The notes: generated by a model from the sequence alone, not told the origin. DNA of 64,000 nt from Longimicrobiales bacterium (GCA_028823235.1 JAPKBW010000001.1:1-64000), one strand, 5' to 3'. Shown: positions 2,756 through 46,833, counted from the stretch's first letter. A program made the numbers and translations.

Positions 2756-2998
2756 ATGCCTTACTACGATTACCACTGTGACGCGAACGACAAGACGATT
2801 GAGGTCCGGCACGGAATGAACGAGCAGTTAGAGACTTGGGGCGAAGTCGTGGCTCGTGCCGGAGAAGACGCTGCAGACACTCCGGTTAGCGCTTCGGTGG
2901 AGCGCCTCATGAGCGCTCCTGTGCCGCTGACCGGAAGCGGCCGCAAGGTCGGGTTCGGGGGATGCGGATCGAGCTGTGTCTGCGTTCCGCAGAACTAA
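2756..2998 (+). CDS. FmdB-like small Cys-containing protein
   Basis: An 80-residue protein starting MPYYDYHCDAN resembles the FmdB zinc-ribbon family, whose members begin MPxYxYxCxxC. The second N-terminal cysteine is replaced (CDAN), and the C-terminus instead carries a GGCGSSCVCV cluster, so any metal site would be assembled differently. It is divergently transcribed from the amidohydrolase and lies 24 nt before the qhpG-like flavoprotein gene, making it the likely first gene of the amine dehydrogenase operon. FmdB itself was named in a formamidase cluster. A regulatory or metal-delivery role here is only inference. Confidence 0.65.
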   Translation: MPYYDYHCDANDKTIEVRHGMNEQLETWGEVVARAGEDAADTPVSASVERLMSAPVPLTGSGRKVGFGGCGSSCVCVPQN

Positions 2999-3022
2999 AT
3001 TGCGTCTGAGCCGGAGCCAACT

Positions 3023-4534
3023 CTGAGCCGGACCCACTTCGAGGCCATTGTGCTTGGCGGCGGCCCTGCGGGTTGCGCCGCGGCCGCGCTCCTCGCGAAA
3101 CGAAGCCACAAAGTGGCGCTGGTTCGTCCACACGCCCCCCCCGCGGCCGCCCTCGTCGAGTCGATTCCTCCGTCGGCGAAGCGCATTCTCGATGAGCTCG
3201 GCTTTCTTGATCCGGTCGAGCAGGCTGGATTTCAGCCGAACCGAGGAAACTCTGTATGGTGGGCCGGTGAGCCAGTCCGCCGAGAGCAGTTCGGTGATGG
3301 TGAGACCGGCTGGCACATCGACCGAGCAGGCCTTGAGACGGTGCTGGCCGGCTGCGCGGCAGCCGCAGGCGTTCAGGTATTCGACGGGTATGCCGCGCGT
3401 AGCGCAATCCAGTCAGACAGCTTGTGGACGATCCAGTGTGACACGCACGCAGGCGGAGCGATGGAGCTGACCACAGACTGGCTAATAGACGCCACCGGCC
3501 GAAAAGGTGTGATCGCCCGTTCGGAGGAACGCATACCGGATCGAAGCACCACCACGCTCGCTCTCGTTCGCCGCTTCCATCGCTCTGAGGGATGGCCCGA
3601 GTCTGACGATGGGCATACGTACGTTGAGAGCTACGATGAGGGGTGGGCTTGGTCGCTTCCGGTCTCCGACACGGTCCGCTGCTTCACCGCGATGATCGAC
3701 CAGCGTGAGGTGTCACTGGAGGGTAGGGATGTCGGAGAGATGCTCGACGCAGAGCTGCGTAAGACACAGTTCGTCGGGCCCGTACGGGACTCCGCTGAGG
3801 CCGTGGGCGATGCCTGGGCCTGCCCTGCGTCCCTGTACTCGGCCACTACGTTCGGCCGACCAGGGCTGCTCCTGACAGGAGATGCCGGATCGTTCATCGA
3901 TCCGCTGTCTTCCTTCGGCGTGAAAAAAGCACTCTCGTCCGGCTGGCTCGCTGGGATCACAGCCCACTCTGCTCTTGTCGATCCAGCGATCGTGGACGAC
4001 GCCATCGACTTCTTTGATCGCCGTGAACGAACGGTGTACCGAAGCTTTCGAAAGGTGTCCGCACCATTCTTTAGCGCGGCCGCGGCAAAGTACGGAACGG
4101 CTTATTGGGAAAAGCGGGCCCAGGCGGCCATCGAAGCCGCCGGGGGAGAGACGCGCTCCGCTGCTGAGGTGCACGATCGACTCACCGAGGAAGTGCCCGA
4201 ACATGAGGTGCGCGCGGCCTTCGAAATCCTGCGGGCGCAGGATCGCCTAGCCCCGGCAGAGGGCCCGACGGTTCGGTATTTCGAACGAGCAGGAATCGAG
4301 GGCTACCGCATCGTCCGTTTGCGCCATGTGGGGAGCGACCGGATTCCCGAAGGACTCCGATTCGTACGCGGCGTTGACTTCATCACCCTGATCCCGATCG
4401 CCCAGCGCCATCCGGACGTCCCTGACGGATGGGCTGCGTATAACAGCGCCGCCCCACCGGTCACGCTGCCCGACTACCTCACGGCACTCTCGACTGCGTT
4501 CGCGGCCGGCTTTCTCGTGCACTCCGAGGACTGA
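3023..4534 (+). CDS. qhpG: Flavin monooxygenase QhpG (CTQ Trp hydroxylase)
   Basis: This FAD-dependent monooxygenase has the fold of flavin halogenases and geranylgeranyl reductases. It carries the dinucleotide motif VLGGGPAG at the N-terminus, the DATG motif (WLIDATGRKG) and the second FAD motif GDAGSFIDPLSSFG (near residue 286). In QHNDH systems QhpG dihydroxylates the Trp of the gamma subunit that becomes cysteine tryptophylquinone; the surrounding qhp genes make this the best identity. The first canonical start (GTG 3050) would remove beta-strand 1 of the FAD fold. A CTG at 3023, six bases after a GGAG, restores it, so I place the start there with moderate certainty. Confidence 0.8.
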   Translation: MSRTHFEAIVLGGGPAGCAAAALLAKRSHKVALVRPHAPPAAALVESIPPSAKRILDELGFLDPVEQAGFQPNRGNSVWWAGEPVRREQFGDGETGWHIDRAGLETVLAGCAAAAGVQVFDGYAARSAIQSDSLWTIQCDTHAGGAMELTTDWLIDATGRKGVIARSEERIPDRSTTTLALVRRFHRSEGWPESDDGHTYVESYDEGWAWSLPVSDTVRCFTAMIDQREVSLEGRDVGEMLDAELRKTQFVGPVRDSAEAVGDAWACPASLYSATTFGRPGLLLTGDAGSFIDPLSSFGVKKALSSGWLAGITAHSALVDPAIVDDAIDFFDRRERTVYRSFRKVSAPFFSAAAAKYGTAYWEKRAQAAIEAAGGETRSAAEVHDRLTEEVPEHEVRAAFEILRAQDRLAPAEGPTVRYFERAGIEGYRIVRLRHVGSDRIPEGLRFVRGVDFITLIPIAQRHPDVPDGWAAYNSAAPPVTLPDYLTALSTAFAAGFLVHSED

Positions 4535-4628
4535 CCTTTAGGCGTAAGGTCTCCCTTCAACACTGGCGAAGCGGCGCCCACATCGGCAGGATGTCACGAT
4601 CTGGTCTTCTCGAACCCGCTTGGAGCCG

Positions 4629-6350
4629 ATGGTGTCTTCCACGCGTTTCTCACTCTCGATCGCAGGGACAGCAGCACTGGGTGTTCTACTCGCCTGGAGC
4701 CCATCCCCAAAAAACACCGTCTCTCATCCATCGATGCTGGCCGAAGATGGGTTTGCCATCGAGAACCAGAAGGTTATCGACCGTTGTTCTCGATGCCATG
4801 AAGTGGATGACGAAGGCAGGATGTCCCGGATCTCCTACCTGAGAAAAAGTCCGGAGGGCTGGCAGACCTCGATCCGCCGGATGGTCGCTCTGCATGGGGC
4901 CCGACTCAATCAGGAAGATGCCCGCGACATCGCCCGGTATCTCGCGAACGAGCAGGGCCTCGCGCCAGAGGAAATGAACCCGGGTCGCTTCGAGGTTGAG
5001 CGCCGGTCGGGAGACTATGACTGGGATGGAGACTCGGACGTCGAGTACACCTGTATCCAGTGCCATTCGATGGGTCGGGTGATAACGCAACGGCGTGCCG
5101 CCGACGAATGGGGATACCTGCTCGATACGCACCGTTCGCTCTATCCGCTCGTTGATTTCCAAGCGTTTCGCTACAGCGGGCCCGCTTCCGAGCAGGACGA
5201 TCCACGACATCCAATGGACCGGGCGATCTCCCACCTGTCCGAGAGCTTCCCATTGGAAACGGCAGAGTGGTCAGCCTGGTCGGCAACGAAGCGATCCCCA
5301 CGGCTCGCTGGGACTTGGGCATTATCCGGGTACGAAGTTGGAAAAGGCCCAATTCACGGCACAGTCACGATCACGGCTGACCCGAACGACTCCGACGCCT
5401 TCACGACATCTACTAACTACTTGTATCCGGAGAGCGGACAGAGTGTCGAACGGACGGGGCAATCGCTCGTTTACACCGGGTATCAGTGGCGCGGTCGTTC
5501 GAATCCTGGAGCCGACAATGAGCTCAGGGAGGTCATGTTCGTCGAGCGCGACCAGCAAGAAATATCAGGGCGCTGGTTCTCGGGCAATTATGACGAGATG
5601 GGCCCCGACGTCACACTGCGCCGGGCTGGGACAGCGGCAATAGTTACAGGCGTCTATCCCATGGCGCTCCGGCAGGGTGGATCCGTGGAAGTGCGCGTCT
5701 ACGGCGCCAGCCTCATGGCGGGCACCCCATCCGACCTCGACTTTGGCGCCGGGATCTCCGTCGCCTCCGTCAGCGGTCCGAGCAACGGCACCCTCCGGGT
5801 TCAGCTCTCCGTCGCTCAGGACGCTGCGATCGGCCGCCGTGATCTCTTCGCATTCGGTGGCCTCGTCGAAAGTGCCGTGATCGTCCACGATGGGGTCGAT
5901 CGGATTGCTGTCACCCCGGAGACTGGCATGGCCCGGACAGGTGGCGCAGCCTTCCCGAAGGGATATCAGACATTTGAAGCGGTCGGCTTCGACAACGGCC
6001 CAGACGGAGAACCGGACACGGACGACGACCTGAACCTTGGGCGCGTTGAAGTCTCTTGGATCGTTGAGGAGTACGCTACCACGTTCGGCGACGATGACAT
6101 TCAGTTCATCGGGACGATGGGCCAGAACGGAGTCTTCTACCCCGCACTGGACGGGCCCAACCCTGATCGTGTCGGGAACCGCAACAACATCGGTGACGTC
6201 TGGGTCGTGGCAACCCATCGCAACGAGAGTGGGGAAGAACGCTCCGCGCGGAGCCACCTCATTGTGACAGTGCCGCTGTATATGCGTTTCGAACCGTGGC
6301 GTGAAATCGACACGGAACGTCCACCCGTAGGAGAAGGAGCGGGGCGATGA
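4629..6350 (+). CDS. qhpA: Quinohemoprotein amine dehydrogenase alpha subunit
   Basis: This is the diheme cytochrome c subunit of periplasmic quinohemoprotein amine dehydrogenase. It takes electrons from the CTQ cofactor of the gamma subunit and passes them to soluble cytochrome or cupredoxin acceptors. An N-terminal signal segment (residues about 10-24) precedes two c-type heme motifs, CSRCH (53-57) and CIQCH (142-146). The long beta-rich C-terminal region, from about residue 200, matches the multi-domain organisation of the family. The start ATG 4629 lies 3 nt after a GGAG; GTG 4632 is an equally good alternative. The stop overlaps the next start in an ATGA, so it is coupled to the radical SAM gene. 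Confidence 0.92.
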   Translation: MVSSTRFSLSIAGTAALGVLLAWSPSPKNTVSHPSMLAEDGFAIENQKVIDRCSRCHEVDDEGRMSRISYLRKSPEGWQTSIRRMVALHGARLNQEDARDIARYLANEQGLAPEEMNPGRFEVERRSGDYDWDGDSDVEYTCIQCHSMGRVITQRRAADEWGYLLDTHRSLYPLVDFQAFRYSGPASEQDDPRHPMDRAISHLSESFPLETAEWSAWSATKRSPRLAGTWALSGYEVGKGPIHGTVTITADPNDSDAFTTSTNYLYPESGQSVERTGQSLVYTGYQWRGRSNPGADNELREVMFVERDQQEISGRWFSGNYDEMGPDVTLRRAGTAAIVTGVYPMALRQGGSVEVRVYGASLMAGTPSDLDFGAGISVASVSGPSNGTLRVQLSVAQDAAIGRRDLFAFGGLVESAVIVHDGVDRIAVTPETGMARTGGAAFPKGYQTFEAVGFDNGPDGEPDTDDDLNLGRVEVSWIVEEYATTFGDDDIQFIGTMGQNGVFYPALDGPNPDRVGNRNNIGDVWVVATHRNESGEERSARSHLIVTVPLYMRFEPWREIDTERPPVGEGAGR

Positions 6351-7819
6351 ATCCTCCAGTTGCAACCGGAGCCTCAGATACCACGGGCTCGAGCCCTGTC
6401 CTCGCACTTCGCGATTTCCATCCGTTCGAGGCCCACGGTGCTCGATTCCTCTACATGGTGCCCTCCGCAGGCATCTTCCGGATGGACGAGGCCGGATCCG
6501 CCATCCTTGATGAGTTGGCAGCCGGGCCCATCGATGTGGATACGCTCGTCGACCGGATGTCTGGGCGCTTCGACGTTGATCGAGTTTTGGGGACGATCGA
6601 TGAACTCACTGAGATCCGAGCTGTCGGAAATCCCTCCGCCCCTAAGGAGCAGGTGCCTAACGACCTGCCCCCGGCGGATTTCCCACTCAACACGATGGTC
6701 CTCAACGTCACCAACAAGTGCAACTTGGCATGCACCTACTGCTACGAGTACGGCGACGACAAGATCGTCGACACGCAGTACGGCAGTCAGCCAAAGTTCA
6801 TGAGTGAAGACACTGCAGAGGAAAGTGTCGAATTCCTGCTCGCCGAGTCTCAAGGGCAGCCGATAGCGCATCTGACGTTTTTCGGAGGCGAGACGCTTCT
6901 GAACTTCCCTCTTCTGCAGAAGACTGTCGCATACGCGCGCCGTCGCGCTGCCGAGGAAAGCAAACGCATCGAGTTCAGTCTCACGACCAACGCGACACTG
7001 CTCCGTCCCGAAATCATTCAATGGCTGGCTGACAACCAGATCGGCGTCACAATCTCGATCGATGGCCCGAAGCCGGTGCAGGACGGGCTCCGTGTCTTCC
7101 ATAACGGAAAGGGCACCTACGACGTCGTCCTGCCCAAGATCAAGGACCTGATCGACAAACATCGGTCTCGCCCGATCGGGGCACGCGTCACGCTCACACA
7201 GAAGAACATGAATGTGATTGAAATCTTCCGTCACCTTACAGAAGAAATCGGTTTCTGGGATGTCGGGCTGGCCCCGGTCACGACTCAGGACCAGCGGGAC
7301 TATGCCATCACGCCCGAGTCGAAAGACGACATGCTCCGCCAATTTGAAGAGCTGGCGAACGAATGGCTCGAGTGTGCGCTCAAGGATGAGCATCATGGTT
7401 TCTCGAACGTGAAGGACACGATCGAAGAGATCCACAAAGGTGTTAGCAAGGCGTACGGCTGCGGTGCCGGCCTGGGCCTCATGGGCGTGGCGACGGACGG
7501 TGACGTCTCGTTGTGCCATCGCTTCGCCGGATCCCCGGAGCACACCATCGGGACCGTGAAGGACGGGGTCGATCGGAAAAAGCAGGAGAAATTCCTCGTC
7601 GATCATCACATCGCATCGAAGACCGATTGCCACACCTGCTGGGCGCGGCCGATCTGTTCAGGGGGCTGCTACCACGAGGCTCACGTTCACTACGGTGAGT
7701 CGTCACACGCCAACCTGCACTACTGCACTTGGGTCCGAAGTTGGACTCACACTTGCTTGGAGATCTACGGAGCCCTGGCAGAGAAAAATCCAAAGTTCCT
7801 GGAGCGATTTGACGCATGA
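6347..7819 (+). CDS. qhpD: Radical SAM/SPASM thioether-forming enzyme QhpD
   Basis: This 490-residue radical SAM enzyme forms the intra-peptide Cys-to-Asp/Glu thioether cross-links in the QHNDH gamma subunit (family knowledge for QhpD/PeaB). The SAM-cluster motif CNLACTYC sits at residues 125-132. It is preceded by a domain of about 100 residues that resembles a peptide-recognition element. The C-terminal SPASM region has the cysteine pattern CGAG...SLCHRF...DCHTCWARPICSGGC...HYC for auxiliary iron-sulfur clusters. It is translationally coupled on both sides (ATGA with qhpA, ATGA with qhpC), so enzyme and substrate are made next to each other. Confidence 0.93.
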   Translation: MNPPVATGASDTTGSSPVLALRDFHPFEAHGARFLYMVPSAGIFRMDEAGSAILDELAAGPIDVDTLVDRMSGRFDVDRVLGTIDELTEIRAVGNPSAPKEQVPNDLPPADFPLNTMVLNVTNKCNLACTYCYEYGDDKIVDTQYGSQPKFMSEDTAEESVEFLLAESQGQPIAHLTFFGGETLLNFPLLQKTVAYARRRAAEESKRIEFSLTTNATLLRPEIIQWLADNQIGVTISIDGPKPVQDGLRVFHNGKGTYDVVLPKIKDLIDKHRSRPIGARVTLTQKNMNVIEIFRHLTEEIGFWDVGLAPVTTQDQRDYAITPESKDDMLRQFEELANEWLECALKDEHHGFSNVKDTIEEIHKGVSKAYGCGAGLGLMGVATDGDVSLCHRFAGSPEHTIGTVKDGVDRKKQEKFLVDHHIASKTDCHTCWARPICSGGCYHEAHVHYGESSHANLHYCTWVRSWTHTCLEIYGALAEKNPKFLERFDA

Positions 7820-8178
7820 AACACCTAAAACCGATAAACCAGAAGGCCAATCGAATCGAAGCCTGGGTCGCGCACGAGGTCGCGGTGGCCAAGGGCGACG
7901 AGATGGACGTCGTAGGACTGCGAACCCCGCCGCACGAAGAGGGCGGACCGCACTTTCCACTGGGGTGCTCCCTGGTTTTCTCACCCGGATGGGAAGTCGA
8001 CAGTCAGGGGGGTACGGCCGGACTCTGTCAGCCCGTCGAACGCGACATCTTCGACTGTCACATCTCGTGCTTCTGGCCAGCACACGTGCCGGATCAGCTG
8101 AACCACGCCCCCGACTGGACCGGGCAGTGTGCATCGGCGCAGAAGGACTGGCGCAAGCTTGACCTCATCTTCCCCTAG
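7816..8178 (+). CDS. qhpC: QHNDH gamma subunit, CTQ-carrying peptide
   Basis: This 120-residue precursor of the catalytic gamma subunit has every residue known from the Paracoccus/Pseudomonas enzyme to be cross-linked, at the same spacing: C51-E60 and C71-D77 and C85-D93 for the three thioether bridges, and C81 with W87 for cysteine tryptophylquinone. The motif blocks are GCSLVFSPGWE, LCQPVERD and CHISCFWPAHVPD. About 45 residues precede the first bridge cysteine, consistent with a leader peptide that is cleaved after modification, presumably by the subtilisin-like protease encoded downstream. The start overlaps the qhpD stop. The mature protein acts in the periplasm within the alpha-beta-gamma trimer. 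Confidence 0.95.
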   Translation: MKHLKPINQKANRIEAWVAHEVAVAKGDEMDVVGLRTPPHEEGGPHFPLGCSLVFSPGWEVDSQGGTAGLCQPVERDIFDCHISCFWPAHVPDQLNHAPDWTGQCASAQKDWRKLDLIFP

Positions 8179-8259
8179 GGACGAATTGACCGGTGTTTCG
8201 GCGCCGGACTGGAATCCAACATCCCGATCGGATTAGGCATCACCTGAGTCGAAATCGAC

Positions 8260-9342
8260 ATGCGAACGACCCTCATCTTTGCAGCCTTCACGGCCCTCTC
8301 TTTCGGAGTCGCGGCGCCTCAGGCGTCGGCTCAGACCGCGACTTGGTATATCTCGACCTATACCGACCAGATGCTGGTATGGGATGAGGAGTCCGAGGAG
8401 ATCATCGATCGGGTCCAGATGAATCGCATCATCCCGAACGGTGTCCAGCTCAACGAGACCAGCACTCGACTGTACGTCGGCGAGGCGTCCGGTCAGTACA
8501 TGCAGATCGTCGACATCGCGTCTCGCGAGGTAATCGACGAATTCACCCTTTCGCATGACAACGTCGTTGTCCGAATCGATGAATTCGCTCCGCACCCTTC
8601 GGATGAACGCGCGGTACTCTTCGTGAAGAAGTACACGAAGCACAGCGACCGCTATGAGGTCGAGGGACCGTTCATCCTCGAATACGATCTCATCACCCAT
8701 CAAGTCACCGATACGATTCCGTGGCCGGATGGAGAGGAGAGAGACAACGTCGGATTCCGCTATTCACCGGACGGCGCCACACTCTACTTCTACACGAACG
8801 ACATCATCGCGGTCGACACCGAATCTTACGAAGAGGTCGATCGCTGGAAGATTTCCCAGCCGCTCGAGCCTGGCCTTGGTCGCCCGAGCTTCGGTACGGA
8901 ATCCGACACCTATGACGAGCCGGGCGTGGCCACGAGTCTCTTCCGCATGCGGGACCCGGTCCAGAACCGCACCCTCATGGGTATCGCTCAGGTGAGACTG
9001 TCCGAGAAGGAGATCGATTTCTTCACGCTCGGGCCGGCGGAGCCGGTAGGTCGCTTCGCACTCGCGCCTGGTGGCGAAAAAGGGTACGCCCTCTATTCGA
9101 CCGTCGGCCAATACGAATTCTGGGAATTCGACCTTGTGAACCAGCGTGTTTCGCGGCGAGTGCCCTTTGAAGGGAGACCTCGCATGGGCCTCGACGTAAG
9201 TGCGGACGGGACGAAGGTCTATGTGCATGTCGCCGGGAACACCATCGACGTGTACGACACTGCGACACTCCAGTTCATGCGGTCGGTCGAGTTCGATGAA
9301 GACATGACCCTCGGCAACGTGGCTATCATCCCGGGGCGCTAG
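8260..9342 (+). CDS. qhpB: QHNDH beta subunit, beta-propeller
   Basis: This 360-residue secreted protein has a classic signal peptide ending at QASAQ (about residue 25) followed by repeated WD40/YVTN-like blades, for example TRLYVGEAS, GATLYFYTND and TKVYVHVAGN. The beta subunit of quinohemoprotein amine dehydrogenase is a seven-bladed propeller that packs on the gamma subunit and helps shape the active-site cavity. The position directly after qhpC and before the exporter gene supports this identity over a generic YVTN-propeller protein. The intergenic gap to qhpC is 81 nt. Confidence 0.9.
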   Translation: MRTTLIFAAFTALSFGVAAPQASAQTATWYISTYTDQMLVWDEESEEIIDRVQMNRIIPNGVQLNETSTRLYVGEASGQYMQIVDIASREVIDEFTLSHDNVVVRIDEFAPHPSDERAVLFVKKYTKHSDRYEVEGPFILEYDLITHQVTDTIPWPDGEERDNVGFRYSPDGATLYFYTNDIIAVDTESYEEVDRWKISQPLEPGLGRPSFGTESDTYDEPGVATSLFRMRDPVQNRTLMGIAQVRLSEKEIDFFTLGPAEPVGRFALAPGGEKGYALYSTVGQYEFWEFDLVNQRVSRRVPFEGRPRMGLDVSADGTKVYVHVAGNTIDVYDTATLQFMRSVEFDEDMTLGNVAIIPGR

Positions 9343-9359
9343 CAGCACCCCGCTCCCCT

Positions 9360-11093
9360 GTGACATTCGTTGACCCACACTTCCGGCGAGCGCTGACCTA
9401 CGTACGTCCGTACCTGGGTGCTCTCGTGCCGGTCGTTGTGCTGGCGCTGGCGTCGACACTCCTCACGCTGGCCCTTCCCTATTTGTCGAAGGTCCTGATC
9501 GACGATGCGATCGGAGGGCAGGACTTTCCGCTTCTCCTGCGCATCTCAGTCCTGTTCTTCGCAATTACACTGCTCTCTTTCGGATTCAACGTCTTTTCAG
9601 GCATGCGTTACACGAGGGTCTCGGCCGCCATCCTGTTCGATATGCGGCTCGACCTTTACCGGCACCTTCAAAAGCTCTCTCCCCGTTTCTACGCTCGGAC
9701 GCCTCTCGGCGACATCGTCTCCCGGATCAACGGAGATATCGGGGAGATCCAGCGCGTCATCACCGAAGCCGCACTGTCCTGGTTCGGACAGGTCGTCGCC
9801 TTCGTCGGAACGGTCGCCATGCTCGTGTACCTCGATTGGCAACTTTTCCTAGTAGGCCTGCTCGTCATGCCACCCTCGCTCTTGGCTCTGGTCCGATATC
9901 GACGCGGGTTGGAGGATCGTGTTCGTGTCCTGCGGGAACGAAGCGCCAACATCGGGTCGTTCCTCATCGAAACACTTCAGGGAATGCGAACCGTCGTCGG
10001 ATCGAATGCTCAGCCAAGGGAAATCAATCGCTTCCGGGGACGGAACGACTCGTTCGTGGAAGCCCTCCTCTCCATGCGCCTCTTCACCTACATCTGGGGC
10101 GGGCTCCCCGGGCTGATGCTGACCGCGGGGACGAGCGCAGTCTTCGTGTACGGCGGCTATCGCGTCATTAACGGGGCCACCACGCTGGGGACGTTCGTGG
10201 CCTTCATGGCCTACCAGTCCCGACTGATGACGCCCGTGCAGGGTCTCATGGGTATCTACACAAACCTCGCCACGGCCCGAGCGTCACTTGTCCGCGTCCA
10301 CGAGCTGCTAGAGGCCACGCCCGATGTTGCCGAAACGGAAGCATCGACCAGGCTCACCGAGTGTCGGGGATCCCTGACCCTCGAGGAGGTGAGCTATGGT
10401 TTCGGCCGCGGGACAGAGGGGCTGGTTGGCGTCAATCTCGAGATCCCTGCTGGACAGATCGTGGCAATCGTCGGTTCCAGCGGCAGCGGGAAGTCGACCC
10501 TGGCTGATCTCTTCTCGCGGCAACTCGATCCGAACCAGGGACGGGTGCTCCTCGATGAGGAGGACCTTACGACGCTGGCGCTCGCAGATGTTCGTCGTCA
10601 CGTCGCCGTGGTCGAGCAAGATCCATTCCTATTCCATGTCTCGGTTGCAGATAACGTCGGGTACGCCCGACCCGACGCGACCCGTGCTGAGGTGACCGAG
10701 GCGATCGACGCCGCTGGGCTTGGAAATCTGGTCCGCACGATGCCAGAGGGAGCCGACACAGTGGTCGGAGAACGTGGCCGTCAGTTCTCTGCGGGAGAAC
10801 GACAGCGTCTCGCAATCGCGCGGGCCTTTCTGTCGAATCCGTCAGTGCTCGTGCTCGACGAAGCGACTGGCGCACTGGATCCGTCCTCCGAAGCCGCAGT
10901 GCTCGAGGGATATAGGAGGGTGATGCGTGGCCGGACGACCGTGATCATCACACATCGCCTCGACCTCGCGCGGCAATCCGAGCGAGTCATCGTGCTCAAG
11001 GACGGCCAGGTCGTAGAGGACGGACCGCCAGGAGTCCTCGAAGCTGAAGGTCAGGCGTTTCGAGACCTGTTCCTTGATGTGCTGGCGGGATGA
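9360..11093 (+). CDS. qhpF: ABC exporter QhpF (permease-ATPase fusion)
   Basis: A 577-residue half-size ABC exporter: six transmembrane helices in roughly the first 320 residues, then an ATPase domain with Walker A GSSGSGKST (372-380), signature FSAGERQ (a variant of LSGGQ) and Walker B VLVLDEATGALD. In QHNDH operons QhpF is needed for moving the modified gamma subunit to the periplasm. The GTG start lies 17 nt after qhpB, and the stop overlaps the protease start in an ATGA. No N-terminal peptidase C39 domain is present, consistent with leader removal by a separate protease. Confidence 0.88.
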   Translation: MTFVDPHFRRALTYVRPYLGALVPVVVLALASTLLTLALPYLSKVLIDDAIGGQDFPLLLRISVLFFAITLLSFGFNVFSGMRYTRVSAAILFDMRLDLYRHLQKLSPRFYARTPLGDIVSRINGDIGEIQRVITEAALSWFGQVVAFVGTVAMLVYLDWQLFLVGLLVMPPSLLALVRYRRGLEDRVRVLRERSANIGSFLIETLQGMRTVVGSNAQPREINRFRGRNDSFVEALLSMRLFTYIWGGLPGLMLTAGTSAVFVYGGYRVINGATTLGTFVAFMAYQSRLMTPVQGLMGIYTNLATARASLVRVHELLEATPDVAETEASTRLTECRGSLTLEEVSYGFGRGTEGLVGVNLEIPAGQIVAIVGSSGSGKSTLADLFSRQLDPNQGRVLLDEEDLTTLALADVRRHVAVVEQDPFLFHVSVADNVGYARPDATRAEVTEAIDAAGLGNLVRTMPEGADTVVGERGRQFSAGERQRLAIARAFLSNPSVLVLDEATGALDPSSEAAVLEGYRRVMRGRTTVIITHRLDLARQSERVIVLKDGQVVEDGPPGVLEAEGQAFRDLFLDVLAG

Positions 11094-11773
11094 CGGACGA
11101 CACCGGACCCGATCGTGCCGTGATTCATGTGGCCGTCATCGACAGCGGAGCTCACACGCCCCATCCACACCTCCCCGAGGTGGCAAACGGCGTCGCCTTC
11201 GACCTAGAGGGCCGCGAATCCGACGACTGGGTCGACCGACTTGGCCACGGCACGGCAGCGGCCGCCGCGATCCACGAGAAGGCGCCCACAGCGAGGCTCA
11301 ATATCGTCAAAGTCTTCGATCGTGAACTCGCGACGACGGTCTCCACGCTCGTGCGGGCAATCGACTGGGCGTCCCAGCGAGAGATCCACCTCATCAATCT
11401 GAGTCTAGGGACACCCAACGCCTTCCGTGAAGAGGAGCTCGCCCCTGCGGTGGAGCGGGCAATCGCTCGTGGTTCTATCATCGTTTCTGCGCAGGAGCAC
11501 GACGGCAGAATCTGGTATCCGGGGTCGATGAAGGGTGTTGTGGGTGTCGTCATGGACCCGGCACAACCCCGTGAGCAGATCGCAGTGACGGAGGTGGGTA
11601 GCGGCACCACTCTTCAAGCATCTCCGTTCGCGCGTCCCATCCCAGGCATACCTCCCGAGAGAAACCTCAACGGAATCAGCTTCGCCGTGGCCAACGTTTC
11701 GGGTGTACTGGCGGGAATTCTGGCAGAGCGTCCGGACGTGCGATCGGCGAGCGGGGCGATCGGGCTGATCTGA
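11090..11773 (+). CDS. qhpE: Subtilisin-like leader protease QhpE
   Basis: This 227-residue S8-family protease has the triad Asp18 (AVIDSG), His53 (GHGT) and Ser197 (NGISFA). It is short, lacks a signal peptide, and is therefore cytoplasmic, as expected for the QhpE protease that removes the gamma-subunit leader after QhpD modification. The usual oxyanion-hole Asn segment (AAGNxG) reads SAQEHDG here, so the canonical Asn is absent, fitting a dedicated processing protease with very narrow activity. It is coupled by an ATGA to the exporter gene and closes the recognisable qhp set. Confidence 0.87.
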   Translation: MTDDTGPDRAVIHVAVIDSGAHTPHPHLPEVANGVAFDLEGRESDDWVDRLGHGTAAAAAIHEKAPTARLNIVKVFDRELATTVSTLVRAIDWASQREIHLINLSLGTPNAFREEELAPAVERAIARGSIIVSAQEHDGRIWYPGSMKGVVGVVMDPAQPREQIAVTEVGSGTTLQASPFARPIPGIPPERNLNGISFAVANVSGVLAGILAERPDVRSASGAIGLI

Positions 11774-11850
11774 CCCGAGGTCAACGACCTCAGTTTGACT
11801 CCGAGCTCTCGCGGTCGCACCGTGGCCCGACCCCACACCACTGAGACCGT

Positions 11851-13098
11851 ATGCGACTCCTTGAGATCCGTAAAGACGTGCAGCGACGTGATTTCCTGCG
11901 TTGGCTCGCCGCCAGTCCACTACTCGCGTCCGCCGGGGGCCTGGCAGGCCTCGAGCCGATCATCGCGCAGGAGGCCCCGCGCAGAGTCTTCGACGACATC
12001 ATACAGAGCGCAGGCGAAGCACTTGACGTCTGGGATATGCAGCGGGCGGCCGAAGCCACCGTCCCACACGCCCACTACGGCTACATCATGACTGGTGTGG
12101 ACGGGGAAGAGACGTACGGGAACAACCGAGCGGCTCTCGAGCGGCTCTACCTCAGAGCCCGTCGACTCATCGACGTGTCGACCCTAGACACGAAGGTGAA
12201 TCTCTTCGGCCAAGAGTGGCCCACGCCGCTCATGATCGCACCATGCGGCAGTCAGCGAGCCTTCCACCCCGAGGGAGAGCTGGCCGTAGCACGCGCAGCG
12301 GCTGCCCGGACGCACCTGCAGACGCTCTCGACAGTGTCGTCTACAGCGGTCGAAGAAGTGAACGAGGCACGGGGCGAGCCCGTTTGGTATCAACTCTACG
12401 TGGGTGGGCCCGGGCCTACACACTGGGAGGGTGTCACTGCGCTCGTGAACAGGACCCGGGAAGCGGGCTGCCCCACGATCGTTCTCACCGTGGACCTGAT
12501 CGGCGGGAGTAACCGCGTCACGCTCGACCGATACAGACGCACCGATGATCGGGACTGCACGAACTGCCACAAGAGCGGAGGACGGGCAGACCCCGTGAAA
12601 CCGAATCTCCGAGGGCTACCGCAGGGTCCACGAGAGGCGGGGATCGGGCGAGACATGACCTGGGACTTCATTCACCGCCTGCGCGACATCACAGACCAGA
12701 AGATCATCGTGAAGGGGCTGGTGACGAGAGAGGACGCCGAAGAGTCCCTGCGCAACGGAATCGACGCGATATGGGTGTCCAACCACGGGGGTCGTGCCGA
12801 GGGTGACGGGCGCGCCACGATCGACGCTCTTCCTGAGGTTTCGGATGCCATCTCGGGCAGGATGCCGATCATCGTGGACAGCGGCTTCCGGCGTGGCTCT
12901 GACCTCGTGAAAGGCATCGCACGCGGAGCAACCGCAGTGGCTGTTGGGCGGCCCTACCTATGGGGTCTTGGAGCGTTCGGGCAGGAGGGCGTCGAGCGCG
13001 TCCTCGAGCTTCTCATGCGAGAAATGGAGATCACGATGCGCGCGATCGGGGCGCCGTCTCTCGAGTCGCTTGGACCTCACTCGATCGGAGTGGACTGA
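11851..13098 (+). CDS. Tat-exported FMN 2-hydroxyacid dehydrogenase, CxxCH insert
   Basis: This protein belongs to the FMN-dependent alpha-hydroxy-acid dehydrogenase family (lactate, glycolate and mandelate oxidising). The core catalytic residues are visible: Asp215 (LTVDL), Lys288 (VKGL), and His312 and Arg315 (SNHGGR). The N-terminus has a twin-arginine signal (QRRDFLRWLA, residues 11-20), so the folded flavoprotein should be exported. In the region corresponding to flexible loop 4, residues 236-240 read CTNCH, a c-type heme-binding pattern that family members normally lack. A periplasmic enzyme with its own heme, or a disulfide or metal site, are both possible. It lies 77 nt after qhpE and may be co-transcribed. 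Confidence 0.85.
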   Translation: MRLLEIRKDVQRRDFLRWLAASPLLASAGGLAGLEPIIAQEAPRRVFDDIIQSAGEALDVWDMQRAAEATVPHAHYGYIMTGVDGEETYGNNRAALERLYLRARRLIDVSTLDTKVNLFGQEWPTPLMIAPCGSQRAFHPEGELAVARAAAARTHLQTLSTVSSTAVEEVNEARGEPVWYQLYVGGPGPTHWEGVTALVNRTREAGCPTIVLTVDLIGGSNRVTLDRYRRTDDRDCTNCHKSGGRADPVKPNLRGLPQGPREAGIGRDMTWDFIHRLRDITDQKIIVKGLVTREDAEESLRNGIDAIWVSNHGGRAEGDGRATIDALPEVSDAISGRMPIIVDSGFRRGSDLVKGIARGATAVAVGRPYLWGLGAFGQEGVERVLELLMREMEITMRAIGAPSLESLGPHSIGVD

Positions 13099-13853
13099 TG
13101 AGCCTCAGGCTCATCCTCCGAGTCACCGCACGCGCGCCAGCCTTGTCGCTGTTCCTGGGAGGTCTGCTTCCTTCAACCGGAATGGCACAGGCGACGACGG
13201 CCGCCGACGGGCGGCTCCTCGAATCGATCGACTACTACACCGGCGTCGCGGGCACCGTAGACGACTCTCGGGCGCAGTTGCTGCTGCTCGAAGTCGCGGC
13301 CGATCCGGACGACGTGCTCGCTCAGATGTGGATGGCCCGGGTCTACTCGACCGGCAGGATGGGCTTCGAACGAGACGTCGAGCGAGCGCGAACAATCTCC
13401 AGTGAAGTGATCGACGAGATTCGTGACCTGGCCAACGCAGGCGATATCGAAGCCATCTTTCTCATGGGCACGGCGTACGACGAAGCTCTCGGCGTGGCCA
13501 GCGACTTCCCGGAGGCGCGGCTCTGGTATGGGCGCGCAGCTGAGCTCGGGCACGTCCTCGCTGCGCACAACGTGGGTAACATGTACAGCGATGGCCGTGG
13601 AGTTGAGGTGGACCACGAGGCCGCCGCTAGATGGTGGGTGCGAGCAGCCAGCGCGGGTGACGTGATCCCTGCGCTGCGTTTGGGAGAGGCCTTCGAGGCA
13701 GGACGAGGGGTGGAGCAGAGTCTCGACTCGGCCCGTGGCTGGTACGGGAAAGCTGCCGCCGCGGGGAACGCAGCGGCCGCCGAGGCCCTGGCACGTCTGA
13801 GGCGCCCTAGCTGGACCGCCTTGGGCATCATCTACATGCCGCCGGCACCCTGA
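13098..13853 (+). CDS. Secreted Sel1-repeat protein
   Basis: This 251-residue protein has a signal peptide ending at GMAQA. Sel1-like tetratricopeptide-type repeats are recognisable from phrases such as GTAYDEALGVASDFPEARLW, AHNVGNMYSDGRGVEV and ALRLGEAFEAGRGVEQ, each followed by an A-x-x-W(Y) helix. Sel1 proteins usually act as protein-protein scaffolds. The ATG overlaps the stop of the preceding dehydrogenase (TGATG), so the two are coupled. The 3' end overlaps the convergent M20 gene by 22 nt. Confidence 0.8.
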   Translation: MSLRLILRVTARAPALSLFLGGLLPSTGMAQATTAADGRLLESIDYYTGVAGTVDDSRAQLLLLEVAADPDDVLAQMWMARVYSTGRMGFERDVERARTISSEVIDEIRDLANAGDIEAIFLMGTAYDEALGVASDFPEARLWYGRAAELGHVLAAHNVGNMYSDGRGVEVDHEAAARWWVRAASAGDVIPALRLGEAFEAGRGVEQSLDSARGWYGKAAAAGNAAAAEALARLRRPSWTALGIIYMPPAP

Positions 13854-15517
13854 TCGCTGATGGATCCAATCCTGCACTGACCATCCGGCTGCCGTAGCGT
13901 CGGATAGGAAACACCGAGCTGCTCGAGGTAGGAGTTGTACCGTTCGGAATCGAAGTAGAAGGGCTGCATCTCTTCGCGAAACTCATCCATTATGTCCGCA
14001 TTCATTTCGATCGCGGGCTGATCGGTCGGACGAATGAAGGGAGAGTATTGCAGGTCTACGGTCTGCACATCGTTGAAGTAGCTCCAGGCAGACTGGACCA
14101 GTTCTGGGGTGACCATGAAGTCGAGCACCGTCATCGCCTGCGCCATCGCACCCTGCGTTGCACCCTTGTGAGCGATGGGCGTTGCCATTGCGATCGCGTT
14201 CGCCCAGTTGTGACCGGGCAGCCCCGGGATGTTTGATGGGAAGGACAGCGTGGCGGTGGGGACGTTCCAGGAAATGTCTCCGATGTCATCGGCATAGCCG
14301 GCGGTGCGCTGGGCCTCCGTCAGCCCGCCTCGGAGTGGTGAGAGCTCGGTCGCGAGTCCGGTCGTCGGACCATCGACCTCTTCCTGTGTGGCCCTCGCGA
14401 AGCGCTGATCCCCGTCGGTCCACTCGGGGAGCCCAACCCTTTCGATGTTCGAATACAGCGTCTCAGCGATGACCTTGTTGAAGTGACCGGGCCACGCGGA
14501 GCCAATGATCCGCGCGGGCCGCAACGTGGTCCCGGTCATCATGGCCGCGCCCTGAGCAACGGAGTCACCGATGGTGAAGAGGTCGCGGATCTGTGGGTAG
14601 TTCTTCTCGCGGAAGTAGAACCAGACCGATGCCTCGGACGGAACAACGTTCGGCTGATCTCCCCCGTCATAGATGACCGAGTGTGAGCGGTGCTGCGTGC
14701 GCAGGTGCTCCCTCCGGAAGTTCCAGCCGACCTCCATGAGATTGGCAGCATCGGCTGCGCTGCGCCCTCTCCAGGGAGAGCCACCCGCATGCGCCGCGAA
14801 CCCTTCGAAGGTGAACATCGCCGAGATGAGCCCGGTGCCCGGCGTCATACCCCAGTTCGTGGAAAGATTTGAGCCGACATGAGCATACAGGACGATGTCC
14901 ACGTCGGAGAAGATCCCTTCTCGTACGTAGTACGCCTTGGTCCCGACCAACTCTTCTGCGACCCCAGGCCATATCTGGATCGTCCCCGGCAGGTCCTCTC
15001 TCTCCATGAGGTCCTTCACGGCGAGCGCCGCCGTAATCTGGACCGCCATGCCGGAGTTGTGCCCCTCCCCGTGCCCAGGCGCCCCGTCGACGAGGGGAAG
15101 ATGACAAGCCACACCCGGGGTCTGTGATGCCTTCGGGATGTTATCGATGTCCGTGCCCAAGGAGATCTTTGGCTCACCCTCACCCCAGGTTGCGACCCAG
15201 GCAGTAGGGATACCCGCTATCCCCTCTTCGACACTGAAGCCATTGTCCTTCAGAAGCTGGACGAGATAGCGCGAGGTCTCGAACTCCTGGAACCCCAGTT
15301 CTCCGTAACTGAATATCTGGTCCACCATGTTGGCGGTGAACTGCTCCTGCCCCTGGATGTACGCGACCAACTGCGACTTCCAGTTATCGAGACGTGCGTC
15401 CTGAGCGGACGTTGGAGTAGCCGTCAGGCCGGCGCAAAAAAGTGTCAGCGCCCCGGTGAGAAGCCAGCCGCGAATAGCTGTTAGAGTGAGGTGATTGCGG
15501 CCGGGGTGAGCGGTCAT
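13832..15517 (-). CDS. Secreted M20-family amidohydrolase/peptidase
   Basis: This 561-residue M20/M28-clan zinc hydrolase is most like aminobenzoyl-glutamate utilisation (AbgB) and amidohydrolase proteins. Visible landmarks are FSYGELGFQEFETS near the N-terminus, the metal-region sequence SLGTDIDNIP, GHGEGHNSGM (His ligand region), GVAEELVGTK (catalytic Glu region) and the dimerisation-domain stretch GFAAHAGGSPWRGRSA. A signal peptide ends near TPTSAQD. The start at MTAHPG is chosen for its AGGAG ribosome-binding site seven bases upstream; a longer in-frame form lacks one. It probably releases amino acids from N-acyl or peptide substrates in the periplasm. Confidence 0.85.
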   Translation of the reverse strand: MTAHPGRNHLTLTAIRGWLLTGALTLFCAGLTATPTSAQDARLDNWKSQLVAYIQGQEQFTANMVDQIFSYGELGFQEFETSRYLVQLLKDNGFSVEEGIAGIPTAWVATWGEGEPKISLGTDIDNIPKASQTPGVACHLPLVDGAPGHGEGHNSGMAVQITAALAVKDLMEREDLPGTIQIWPGVAEELVGTKAYYVREGIFSDVDIVLYAHVGSNLSTNWGMTPGTGLISAMFTFEGFAAHAGGSPWRGRSAADAANLMEVGWNFRREHLRTQHRSHSVIYDGGDQPNVVPSEASVWFYFREKNYPQIRDLFTIGDSVAQGAAMMTGTTLRPARIIGSAWPGHFNKVIAETLYSNIERVGLPEWTDGDQRFARATQEEVDGPTTGLATELSPLRGGLTEAQRTAGYADDIGDISWNVPTATLSFPSNIPGLPGHNWANAIAMATPIAHKGATQGAMAQAMTVLDFMVTPELVQSAWSYFNDVQTVDLQYSPFIRPTDQPAIEMNADIMDEFREEMQPFYFDSERYNSYLEQLGVSYPTLRQPDGQCRIGSISDQGAGGM

Positions 15518-15712
15518 GGTGCTACTCCTGTAGAGATGGACTGCGGCCAACATGGCTCGTAAGGGCACGCCCGGCGAGACAGCTGACGCTGGATCCGATG
15601 ACGAGTTGGCCTAGCCCATCAGTGATCCGACCTCCAGATCTTCGACACGGTGCGGGGTATCGCCGTCGACCCCCGAGGCGCGGTTAGCGTCTCGCGGAAG
15701 GCAGGTGGGTGC

Positions 15713-16090
15713 CTAGCGGCCGACGTCGTCAGCAGGGATGGCATGCAGCACCGTGAGCGCGATCGATCTTGCCCGCGAGAGCAAGGCAGTCCGCCTCGTG
15801 CATGGCGCCCTCGGCGGAAGAAGGATTCGACTGCCAGCGAATATGGGGATCCGCGCCGATCGGATTGCAGAACGGTCCCATCGCCTGAAATGACTCTGCA
15901 CCCGTGACGGCACTCGACCGAACTGGGTTCCACCCGGACTGATTCCTCGACGACTGGATCGATCGCCGCGGGGTCGTGTGCGCCAAGGCCGATATCTTCG
16001 AGGATCAGGGCGATCACACCCTCACCCCAAATGTGGCCATGGCCGGGACTAGAGTCGTTTCTGGATTGACGCTCATCTTCCTTCTCTTGT
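15713..16090 (-). pseudogene. Possible decayed gene, family unknown
   Basis: No intact gene fills 15518-16264, but three minus-strand frames carry protein-like pieces in consecutive order. They are ALILEDIGLGAHDPAAIDPV (about 16020-15950), then ADPHIRW, GAMHEADCLALAGKID (about 15870-15750), then VLHAIPADDVGR followed by a stop at 15713. The frame changes twice. I do not recognise the family. The remaining gap sequence up to the YhbY gene shows nothing clear. Confidence 0.3.
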
Positions 16091-16264
16091 CCGAAATCCG
16101 GTCCTACTTCGTGTCCCCATCTGACGTGCGATTTCACGGAACCAACTCATCTGCAGCCCTGACTTTTTCAAGCGGCATACCGGACGGGTTTCGCACGGGT
16201 GGTCCCGTTGCCAGCTTCTTCACCCCTCCACGCCCTATCCACCGGAGCCCGACTCCGGAGAATT

Positions 16265-16576
16265 ATGACCCAGCTCACCTCGAAACAGCGCGCGTACCTC
16301 CGCAAACTCGCTCATCCTCTCAAGCCGGTCGTACTCGTTGGCGGTGACGGTGTCACGGACGCCCTCATCTCCTCAGTAAGCGACGCGTTCAACAGCCGTG
16401 AGCTACTAAAGGTCAAGTTGCAGGAATCGGCTTCGATCAAAGTTCGAGACGCTGCGAACCAGATCGCCGACGCTCTGGAGGACGTACATGCGGTCCAGAC
16501 CATCGGAAAGACGATGGTCCTGTATCGGCGCGATCCAGAGGATCCGGAAATCCGGCTGCCTTCTGCACGGAGCTGA
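16265..16576 (+). CDS. yhbY: YhbY/CRS1 family RNA-binding protein
   Basis: This 103-residue protein matches the CRM (YhbY) domain across its whole length: LTSKQRAYLRKLAHPLKPVV, the VGGDGVTD loop corresponding to the family's GxxG RNA-binding loop, ELLKVKLQES, and a C-terminal QTIGKTMVLYRR. Bacterial YhbY binds pre-50S ribosomal subunits and participates in ribosome assembly. The start MTQLTSK is chosen because the family begins here; the upstream in-frame extension is Pro/Ser-rich and unlike the family. The following gene begins 2 nt after its stop codon. Confidence 0.88.
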   Translation: MTQLTSKQRAYLRKLAHPLKPVVLVGGDGVTDALISSVSDAFNSRELLKVKLQESASIKVRDAANQIADALEDVHAVQTIGKTMVLYRRDPEDPEIRLPSARS

Positions 16577-16577
16577 C

Positions 16578-16856
16578 ATGTCTCGGGCCTTCGTCAAAGA
16601 AGACGACCACGAAAAGGAGCCAGAGTTTCGGCTCCCAGATCCAGGGACGGCCTACTACGACGAGGCAGCCTCGTGGGCGCTTATTCAGGGTGCCGATGAA
16701 GGGAATACGAAGGGAGCCGAAGTCGCCACAGGATATGTCTGGGGAGACCCGCTGCTGACAAAGCCCATGGCGATGATTCTGGAACAGGCGGAAGCCGATG
16801 GGCAGGATCGCGTGGCCCAACTCGCCCGCCGGTATCTGAAGGCGGCAGCCCGCTAA
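16578..16856 (+). CDS. Small conserved hypothetical protein (MSRAFVKE N-terminus)
   Basis: The product is 92 residues, acidic, with no signal or membrane segment. Its first eight residues (MSRAFVKE) are the same as those heading some GreA-related proteins I recall, but no GreA domain follows. The rest (VATGYVWGDPLLTKPMAMIL, then a helical LARRYLKAAAR tail) is not recognised. The ATG directly follows the yhbY stop, so the two are one operon and it may share a ribosome- or transcription-linked role. No function is assigned. Confidence 0.6.
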   Translation: MSRAFVKEDDHEKEPEFRLPDPGTAYYDEAASWALIQGADEGNTKGAEVATGYVWGDPLLTKPMAMILEQAEADGQDRVAQLARRYLKAAAR

Positions 16857-17282
16857 CTGCCTGGCTGGGCCAGGTTGATTTCGAAGCAGGTCGTATCGAC
16901 ACAGTAATCGTGACACGAGGCGATCGTCCCGAAGCCCATCGATGGGTACACGCTTCGGGCAACGTGTAGCTAAGGAGCCAGATCGAGTCGCAGGGTGACA
17001 TAACCCAGGTCAGAGGCGGCGGGGGTAACCGCCCGGGGGCTCACACTTAGAGGCGCTTCATCTCACAGATGTTCGGCGATTCGAGTCGCGACAGCACTAG
17101 AGATTCCATCGATGTGCCAGCGAGCGCAACATACGGCTCGGGAAGCCCTGTAAAACTCGCCTTCTGGGTCTTTCGAACGAACACCCACGGTTGTGCGAAA
17201 TCACTGCATACCCGGTAAAGAGTACACGGAACTGGTCGAACGCCGGGCCAGCATCGACCCGCTCGATGATCAACTCGGTCAT
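16853..17282 (-). pseudogene. Decayed GNAT acetyltransferase
   Basis: A GNAT-family gene is readable only by changing frames. It starts at an ATG that overlaps the stop of the aldo-keto reductase gene (ATGA) with FDQFRVLFTGYA, shifts frame to GLPEPYVALAG and ICEMKRL ending in TAA at 17047, then continues in a third frame as GYVTLRLDLAP, an in-frame TAG at 16970, and ARSVYPSMGF...CFEINLA to a final stop at 16853. ICEMKRLYV, MRLDTLP and YxSLGF are the matching landmarks of this GNAT subgroup. Two frameshifts and one internal stop within about 430 nt show loss of function. It was the last gene of the minus-strand operon. Confidence 0.75.
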
Positions 17283-44037: not shown

Positions 44038-44339
44038 GTCAATCTTCCAAGTCATTGGCATTCCACACCTTATGGCTATCGCGGGGAACGACCTACATGC
44101 GCGCGCGTCGGACGCCGGGGTACTGAGCTGGCTCCGGCCAGACCTGCGAGGGCCCGAAGGGTTAGAAACACCGCATCTTCGCCCCGAATGATTGTGCTAT
44201 TCGGTATGGCACACAGCGAAATCGGTCCTTATTCTTTCAGTACGGTCTCGCGTGACCGCAGCGCTCAGCCTTTTTGTGGCTATGCGTGTCATGCTAGTAA
44301 CCGAAAAAATCTGACTCCAAGTAGTTGCCTGAGGCTGGA
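44038..44339. other. Gap with no gene seen
   Basis: These 302 bases read poorly in all frames and are less GC-rich than their neighbours. They probably hold the promoter of the DUF1592-DUF1552-ankyrin operon; no clear -35/-10 pair, operator or terminator is seen. Confidence 0.4.
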
Positions 44340-46787: not shown

Positions 46788-46833
46788 GTATCAGACTTTA
46801 GAAACACACCAACCTCAAGCGAGGCTGTAACAG

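Follow-up and report, generated by a model that had tools for sequence, protein, structure and literature searches.

The closest described relatives of the locus reported here are the quinohemoprotein amine dehydrogenases (QHNDHs) of Pseudomonas putida (1JMX/1JMZ; QhpG, 7CTQ) and Paracoccus denitrificans (1JJU/1PBY). The P. putida system comprises alpha, beta, and gamma subunits, two c-type haem motifs, and a full maturation set, and its gamma subunit contains the CTQ pair and three Cys-Asp/Glu pairs; the P. denitrificans system shares this architecture and the eight gamma residues concerned. Two of the maturases have relatives outside these systems. CteB (5WGG) and the PapB-family ranthipeptide maturases are radical SAM/SPASM homologues of QhpD and likewise introduce Cys thioether bonds, but their substrates are short RiPP precursors and not an enzyme subunit. 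LodB/GoxB and the FAD halogenases (CmlS, 8zop) belong to the flavoenzyme superfamily of QhpG. When Arg47, Arg70, or Arg314 of P. putida QhpG is mutated, almost all activity is lost and/or QhpC is bound with lower affinity, and these residues have been proposed to dock the acidic surface of the gamma subunit (PMC7876137). The biochemical roles of the Qhp proteins used in this paper were taken from PMC7876137 and PMC8172795.

The window analyzed is a stretch of 64,000 nucleotides from a Longimicrobiales bacterium (GCA_028823235.1, JAPKBW010000001.1:1-64000). Families were assigned with Pfam and NCBIfam profiles, and the scores were compared with the curated cut-offs. Judged from its sequence, the region 3023-11773 is a complete QHNDH gene set: all seven ORFs, in the order QhpG-A-D-C-B-F-E, lie on the + strand and are tightly packed, with 4-base overlaps at the A/D, D/C, and F/E junctions (Table 1). 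This agrees with a preliminary description of the same DNA, in which the structural genes A, C, and B and the maturation genes G, D, F, and E were said to form one coupled run. The identity and completeness of the set, also claimed there, are supported by the Pfam/NCBIfam matches, the alignment with PDB sequences, and the fold match of QhpB. The range given in that description, 2756-11773, holds for 3023-11773 and not for 2756-2998, which is a small FmdB-like ORF and not a qhp gene. The alpha and gamma subunits and QhpD matched QHNDH-named models above the cut-off, and QhpB, QhpG, and QhpE fell below their NCBIfam cut-offs, yet were recognizable.

Table 1. Coordinates of the qhp genes, selected codons, and flanking genes in the window; enzyme roles are assigned by homology
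Feature	Coordinates	Strand	Description
FmdB-like ORF	2756..2998	+	Small ORF, 80 aa; TIGR02605 26.4 bits, under the cut-off of 31.3
qhpG	3023..4534	+	Putative peptidyl-Trp dihydroxylase, FAD-dependent; translation probably from CTG 3023, with GTG 3050 next in frame
qhpA	4620..6350	+	Diheme alpha subunit with signal peptide; TIGR03908 443 bits (cut-off 274)
qhpD	6347..7819	+	Radical SAM/SPASM protein, predicted to form Cys-Asp/Glu thioethers in QhpC; TIGR03906 545.6 bits (cut-off 453); Cys470
qhpC	7816..8178	+	Precursor of the gamma subunit, with a leader, the eight cross-link/CTQ residues, and the additional Cys105; NF037958 124.8 bits (cut-off 50)
Cys85-Phe86-Trp87 codons	8068..8076	+	Cys41 equivalent and CTQ tryptophan (Trp43 equivalent), from the 1jmx_G/1jju_C alignment; positions count from the qhpC start, 7816
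Cys105 to Asp111 codons (CX5D)	8128..8148	+	Lineage-specific fifth Cys and downstream Asp
qhpB	8260..9342	+	Beta subunit with a seven-bladed beta-propeller; sequence strongly diverged; fold and profile match
qhpF	9360..11093	+	ABC exporter half-transporter; PF00664 and PF00005
qhpE	11090..11773	+	Subtilisin-like leader peptidase; NF049966 157.8 bits, just under the cut-off of 165
FMN-dependent alpha-hydroxy-acid dehydrogenase	11851..13098	+	PF01070 333 bits; no qhp gene

The alpha subunit aligned with 1jmx_A at 281 bits and contained the four QHNDH domains I-IV (PF09098, PF14930, PF09099, and PF09100), each above its cut-off, together with two CXXCH haem motifs (CSRCH and CIQCH). The beta subunit was the most diverged: QhpB reached just 39 bits with the QH_beta model TIGR03907, against a cut-off of 223, and in the fold alignment it was about 16% identical to its P. 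putida counterpart. A PDB fold search with its AlphaFold2 model (pLDDT 89.6) put 1jju_B and 1jmx_B in the top two places (TM 0.75 and 0.74), a profile built from 48 QhpB relatives matched both structures over their full length, and TIGR03907 was matched by all 48 aligned relatives. On its modeled fold, the assignment of QhpB as a beta subunit of the QHNDH type is settled. QhpF has a Walker A motif (GSSGSGKS), the signature SAGERQR, and LVLDEA, and QhpE has the motifs VIDSG, GHGT, and GISFA of the triad Asp18/His53/Ser197.

Based on these families, the fold, the intact motifs, and their conservation, and with the enzyme roles carried over by homology from Paracoccus and Pseudomonas, we put the probability at nearly nine in ten that this is a complete, native, and presumably functional Gemmatimonadota qhp operon, belonging to a "five-Cys" lineage described below and encoding a periplasmic, amine-oxidizing QHNDH. 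The scores of QhpB, QhpG, and QhpE under their cut-offs, the arginine replacements in QhpG, and the lack of a qhpR beside the operon speak against it. If the homology holds, QhpD would cross-link cytoplasmic QhpC through Cys-Asp/Glu thioethers, QhpG would dihydroxylate Trp87 (Trp43 in mature numbering), QhpE would remove the leader, and QhpF would export the gamma subunit, which would then join alpha and beta subunits that each carry their own signal peptide. Oxidation would complete CTQ (Cys81-Trp87), and the enzyme would oxidatively deaminate primary amines, passing electrons from CTQ through the two c-hemes to an acceptor.

QhpC aligned without gaps to 1jmx_G and 1jju_C, and C51/E60, C71/D77, C85/D93, and C81/W87 of the window correspond to C7/E16, C27/D33, C41/D49, and C37/W43, respectively. 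The eight cross-linked residues therefore stand at the spacing known from both reference enzymes, as the preliminary description had stated. For a wider comparison, 93 distinct gap-free gamma cores were collected, of which 81 were five-Cys cores from Gemmatimonadota, Acidobacteriota, and one Novosphingobium plasmid, and 12 were classic cores. The eight cross-link/CTQ residues were kept in all 81 five-Cys cores. The two groups differed at other positions. Mature position 61 was occupied by a fifth cysteine (C61; C105 in the window) in 81/81 five-Cys cores and 0/12 classic cores, which have Ala or Val there (Ala in P. denitrificans), and Asp36 showed the same 81/81 versus 0/12 distribution; P. 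putida has Ala and Gly at these two sites, and the lineage-specific differences apply equally to P. denitrificans. Asp67 was found in 81/81 five-Cys versus 9/12 classic cores (Asn in the other 3), and Asp72 in 80/81 versus 5/12. In contrast, Asp12 and Asp39, each present in 12/12 classic cores, were mostly replaced in the five-Cys lineage, by Ser/Ala and mainly by Leu/Ile, respectively. Trp42, which adjoins the CTQ tryptophan in classic cores, was Phe/Tyr in the five-Cys lineage, and the mean net charge of the core was -4.1 in the five-Cys group and -8.4 in the classic group. The lowest identity within the lineage was 61%, so the invariance of C61 and the other positions does not stem from too little divergence; classic proteobacterial cores were 41-63% identical to the lineage. 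The precursor stretch ahead of C7 was also longer, by 16 residues relative to P. putida: the C7 equivalent is residue 51 in the window and residue 35 in two other loci (L022 and L023).

Two unusual gamma genes were seen in the sampled genomes. In one locus (L020, G025 contig 10), the gamma gene was partial, the C-terminal 37 residues matching and being fused in frame to an unrelated sequence; this is either a remnant or an assembly error. Contig 1 of G366 carried a pair of classic QhpC genes (L104 and L111), separated by about 29 kb and quite different in sequence, and class-level sampling around G366 gave no further genomes with QhpC.

The maturase that acts on the gamma cysteines in the known systems has changed as well. 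QhpD of the window kept all ten invariant shared cysteines, three in the radical SAM motif and seven of the SPASM type, and carried an additional one, Cys470, which was invariant in the five-Cys lineage (81/81) and absent from classic QhpD (0/12), including that of P. putida.

Two explanations of C61 have to be weighed. One is that it has a structural role as a free or buried thiol, packing on the diverged beta subunit or on the gamma core, QhpD still making three thioethers, and we give this reading close to an even chance. Beta is the subunit that has diverged most, C61 would, if helical, lie on one side together with the invariant W57, A64, and W68, and packing also accounts for its strict conservation. 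However, a lone invariant free cysteine is unusual in a periplasmic protein whose remaining cysteines are cross-linked, and this explanation leaves Asp36 and QhpD Cys470 unaccounted for. The other explanation, which we regard as possible and hold at distinctly less than even odds, is that QhpD joins C61 to an aspartate in a fourth thioether, giving four thioethers plus CTQ. The most likely partners would be Asp67, at the CX5D spacing that also separates C27 and D33, or Asp36, which was gained alongside C61. A fourth bond fits the joint distribution of C61, Asp36, and Asp67, the gain of the invariant Cys470 by QhpD on the same branch as C61, the lack of a conserved partner cysteine in the alpha or beta subunit, and the six Cys-Asp bonds made in freyrasin by the QhpD homologue PapB (PMC8172795). 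Against it, every gain falls on one branch and hence counts as one event, and by our own count about 40% of core positions would by chance meet the pattern of a cysteine 6-9 residues ahead of an invariant acid. Furthermore, a low-confidence QhpC model (AlphaFold2, 53-sequence alignment, mean pLDDT 50) places C105 in a helix that ends at residue 110, and residues i and i+6 are set apart on a helix face. On balance, the buried free thiol is about as likely as the fourth thioether, if not more so.

Two further ideas about this cysteine were rejected. The CX5D spacing was dropped as proof of a cross-link owing to the chance frequency given above. An intersubunit disulfide at C61 is unlikely because the alpha subunit conserves only its four haem cysteines and the beta subunit has no conserved cysteine.

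The second maturase that differs from its P. putida counterpart is QhpG. The QhpG model NF049967 was by far its best-scoring family (200.7 versus 101.7 bits), at a score under the cut-off of 240. A single-sequence search ranked the halogenase 8zop above 7CTQ (113 versus 52 bits), but the family model and the position of the gene within the qhp operon set it apart from LodB/GoxB and the FAD halogenases. The frame is open from 2999 and contains no ATG, GTG, or TTG before 3050. The GTG at 3050, chosen by the ORF finder, would truncate the Rossmann-type FAD-binding fold within its first strand (FEAIVLGGGPAG). The CTG at 3023 is preceded by GGAG, and a CTG right behind the fmdB stop was also found in three related loci (L028, L030, and L033); translation thus likely begins at CTG 3023. 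With residues of the window protein counted from base 2999, QhpG kept the 7CTQ residues E42 (E54 in the window), W74, W181, W183 (W218 in the window), D260, and P267, and the three docking arginines were changed (R47 to S59, R70 to N84, and R314 to S349). In the lineage, Arg47 was replaced by Ser in 45/47 sequences, Arg70 by Asn in 45/47, and Glu84 by Gly in 46/47, and Arg314 was variable. The window protein has Arg351 and Lys352 near the Arg314 position, and the positive charge there may have been shifted in part to these residues. Since two or three arginines essential in P. putida are replaced, QhpG activity cannot simply be transferred to this protein.

One interpretation of these replacements is that the genes encode a homologous complex without CTQ chemistry, or with another substrate class, in which QhpG no longer acts on tryptophan. 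The change of Arg47, Arg70, and Glu84 to Ser, Asn, and Gly and the replacement of Trp42 next to the CTQ tryptophan speak for it. However, the operon retains every residue of the CTQ and the cross-links, the haem motifs, the leader peptidase, and the exporter, QhpG has both Glu42 and Trp183, and Asp12 and Asp39 of the gamma subunit, the proposed partners of the arginines, were lost in parallel, so we consider this interpretation improbable. The parallel loss of arginines in QhpG and acidic residues in the gamma subunit looks instead like a re-fitted QhpC-QhpG interface; the pattern is consistent with this but does not prove it, because both changes sit on one branch. The combined picture of an unrecognized, large Gemmatimonadota/Acidobacteriota QHNDH lineage in which QhpD adds a fourth thioether (Cys61-Asp67/Asp36) through the extra cysteine and in which QhpC-QhpG docking has been re-fitted is put forward tentatively.

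The distribution of the operon identified the host as a member of the Gemmatimonadota, a phylum in which the operon is both native and ancient. Of 306 related loci from named genomes, the best 80 belonged to Gemmatimonadota and Acidobacteriota, two soil/marine phyla, save two doubtfully labeled records. QhpC was found in 10 of the 13 other searched genomes of the host genus and in 75 of 395 sampled Gemmatimonadota genomes, and given this retention the operon is considered to be under selection. It was also found in 21 of 297 genomes from the phylum of an Acidobacteriota locus, and classic QhpC occurred in six genomes among 397 others from the phylum of G059 (probably Pseudomonadota). A search of viral contigs for relatives returned none. 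In the QhpD tree, the window sequence was nested within Gemmatimonadota, and the classic and five-Cys sequences were split by one very long, fully supported branch. Sequence comparisons thus place the window operon in a deep, separate five-Cys lineage of QHNDHs. The non-proteobacterial host proposed in the preliminary description is borne out by these nearest neighbors; the deep lineage, the extra cysteine, and the accompanying changes in QhpC, QhpD, and QhpG were absent from it. A recent acquisition from Proteobacteria, to which a related operon on one Novosphingobium plasmid (QhpC 62% identical) might point, has next to no probability and is ruled out at the present sampling by the Gemmatimonadota nearest relatives and the QhpD tree, in which the Novosphingobium copy sits within an Acidobacteriota group, so that transfer probably ran in the opposite direction, and by the only 41-63% identity of classic proteobacterial cores.

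Several individual records deserve mention. The Novosphingobium operon (L021; Novosphingobium sp. RL4, an alphaproteobacterial 1.8-Mb plasmid, 8661-16927) is a five-Cys operon of the order A-D-C-B-F-E with only a weak QhpG-like ORF (26 bits) in its vicinity, and it looks like an inter-phylum transfer. A record labeled Rhodospirillaceae (L031, TaraRedSea RS361) was rejected as a proteobacterial copy: its QhpC and QhpD match their counterparts in a Gemmatimonadota locus (L032) exactly, and it is probably a misbinned contig. An Acidobacteriota-like five-Cys operon in a MAG labeled Bifidobacterium breve (L062) is probably a mislabeled record. In some Gemmatimonadota MAGs (L063, 5549-9626; L065; L095), ATPase-like and transposase-like ORFs spanning several kb separate qhpD from qhpC (or A from D), which suggests insertion.

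The gene order G-A-D-C-B-F-E was intact in 31 loci, and most incomplete loci were compatible with it; it is the commonest order in the five-Cys lineage of Gemmatimonadota and Acidobacteriota. The position of qhpG at the front, which distinguishes the window from P. putida, was correctly observed in the preliminary description, but the novelty implied there does not stand, as this is the usual order of the lineage and variability has been published (PMC7876137). The proteobacterial order A-D-C-B-F-E-G given there is not universal either, a Pseudomonas nitroreducens plasmid having F-G-A-D-C-B-E. Previous work described qhp genes as variable in arrangement, order, and strand and counted more than 1300 species with them (PMC7876137), and a review also mentions Gram-positive hosts (PMC8172795); therefore, neither the gene order nor the non-proteobacterial host is new in kind.

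The operon is adjoined by genes for an amidohydrolase, a 197-aa ORF without a Pfam match, the FMN dehydrogenase, and a Sel1-repeat protein, and no qhpR regulator was found among these adjoining genes. The FmdB-like protein resembles a zinc ribbon at its N-terminus, where the Cys pairs are incomplete, and its tail is rich in Cys (CGSSCVC). Its gene, which is coupled to qhpG in the host genus, is kept directly 5' of qhpG in that genus and in close relatives and has this position in L024, L027, L028, L030-L033, L036, and L038-L041. The FMN dehydrogenase gene follows qhpE in L024, L027-L029, and L032-L035 and is kept in the host genus; the N-terminus of its product is twin-arginine-like (RRDFLRW), and the enzyme might have a periplasmic role, with a related compound as its substrate. 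Elsewhere in the window (44325-48222), an adjoining gene pair of the DUF1587/1592/1588/1585/1595 and DUF1552 types was observed.

The QHNDH system itself is known, and what is new is the deep lineage, the fifth invariant cysteine of its gamma subunit, and the matching changes in two maturases. In the open-licence literature on QHNDH/Qhp, Gemmatimonadota, and Acidobacteria, we found no description of the five-Cys variant, and in the open-licence literature no biochemical study of any member of the lineage; the work that we found on QHNDH assembly rests on Paracoccus and Pseudomonas. The lineage offers natural variants in each of the proteins that contact the gamma subunit, namely, an extra cysteine in QhpC, an extra cysteine in QhpD, and the loss of the arginine cluster in QhpG, and with it one can test directly what determines how many thioethers QhpD makes, as well as the published QhpC-QhpG docking model. 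The beta subunit of these phyla, and here also QhpG and QhpE, falls under the usual annotation cut-offs. By analogy with the characterized enzymes, the operon predicts that periplasmic amine oxidation would take place in phyla known mainly from metagenomes.
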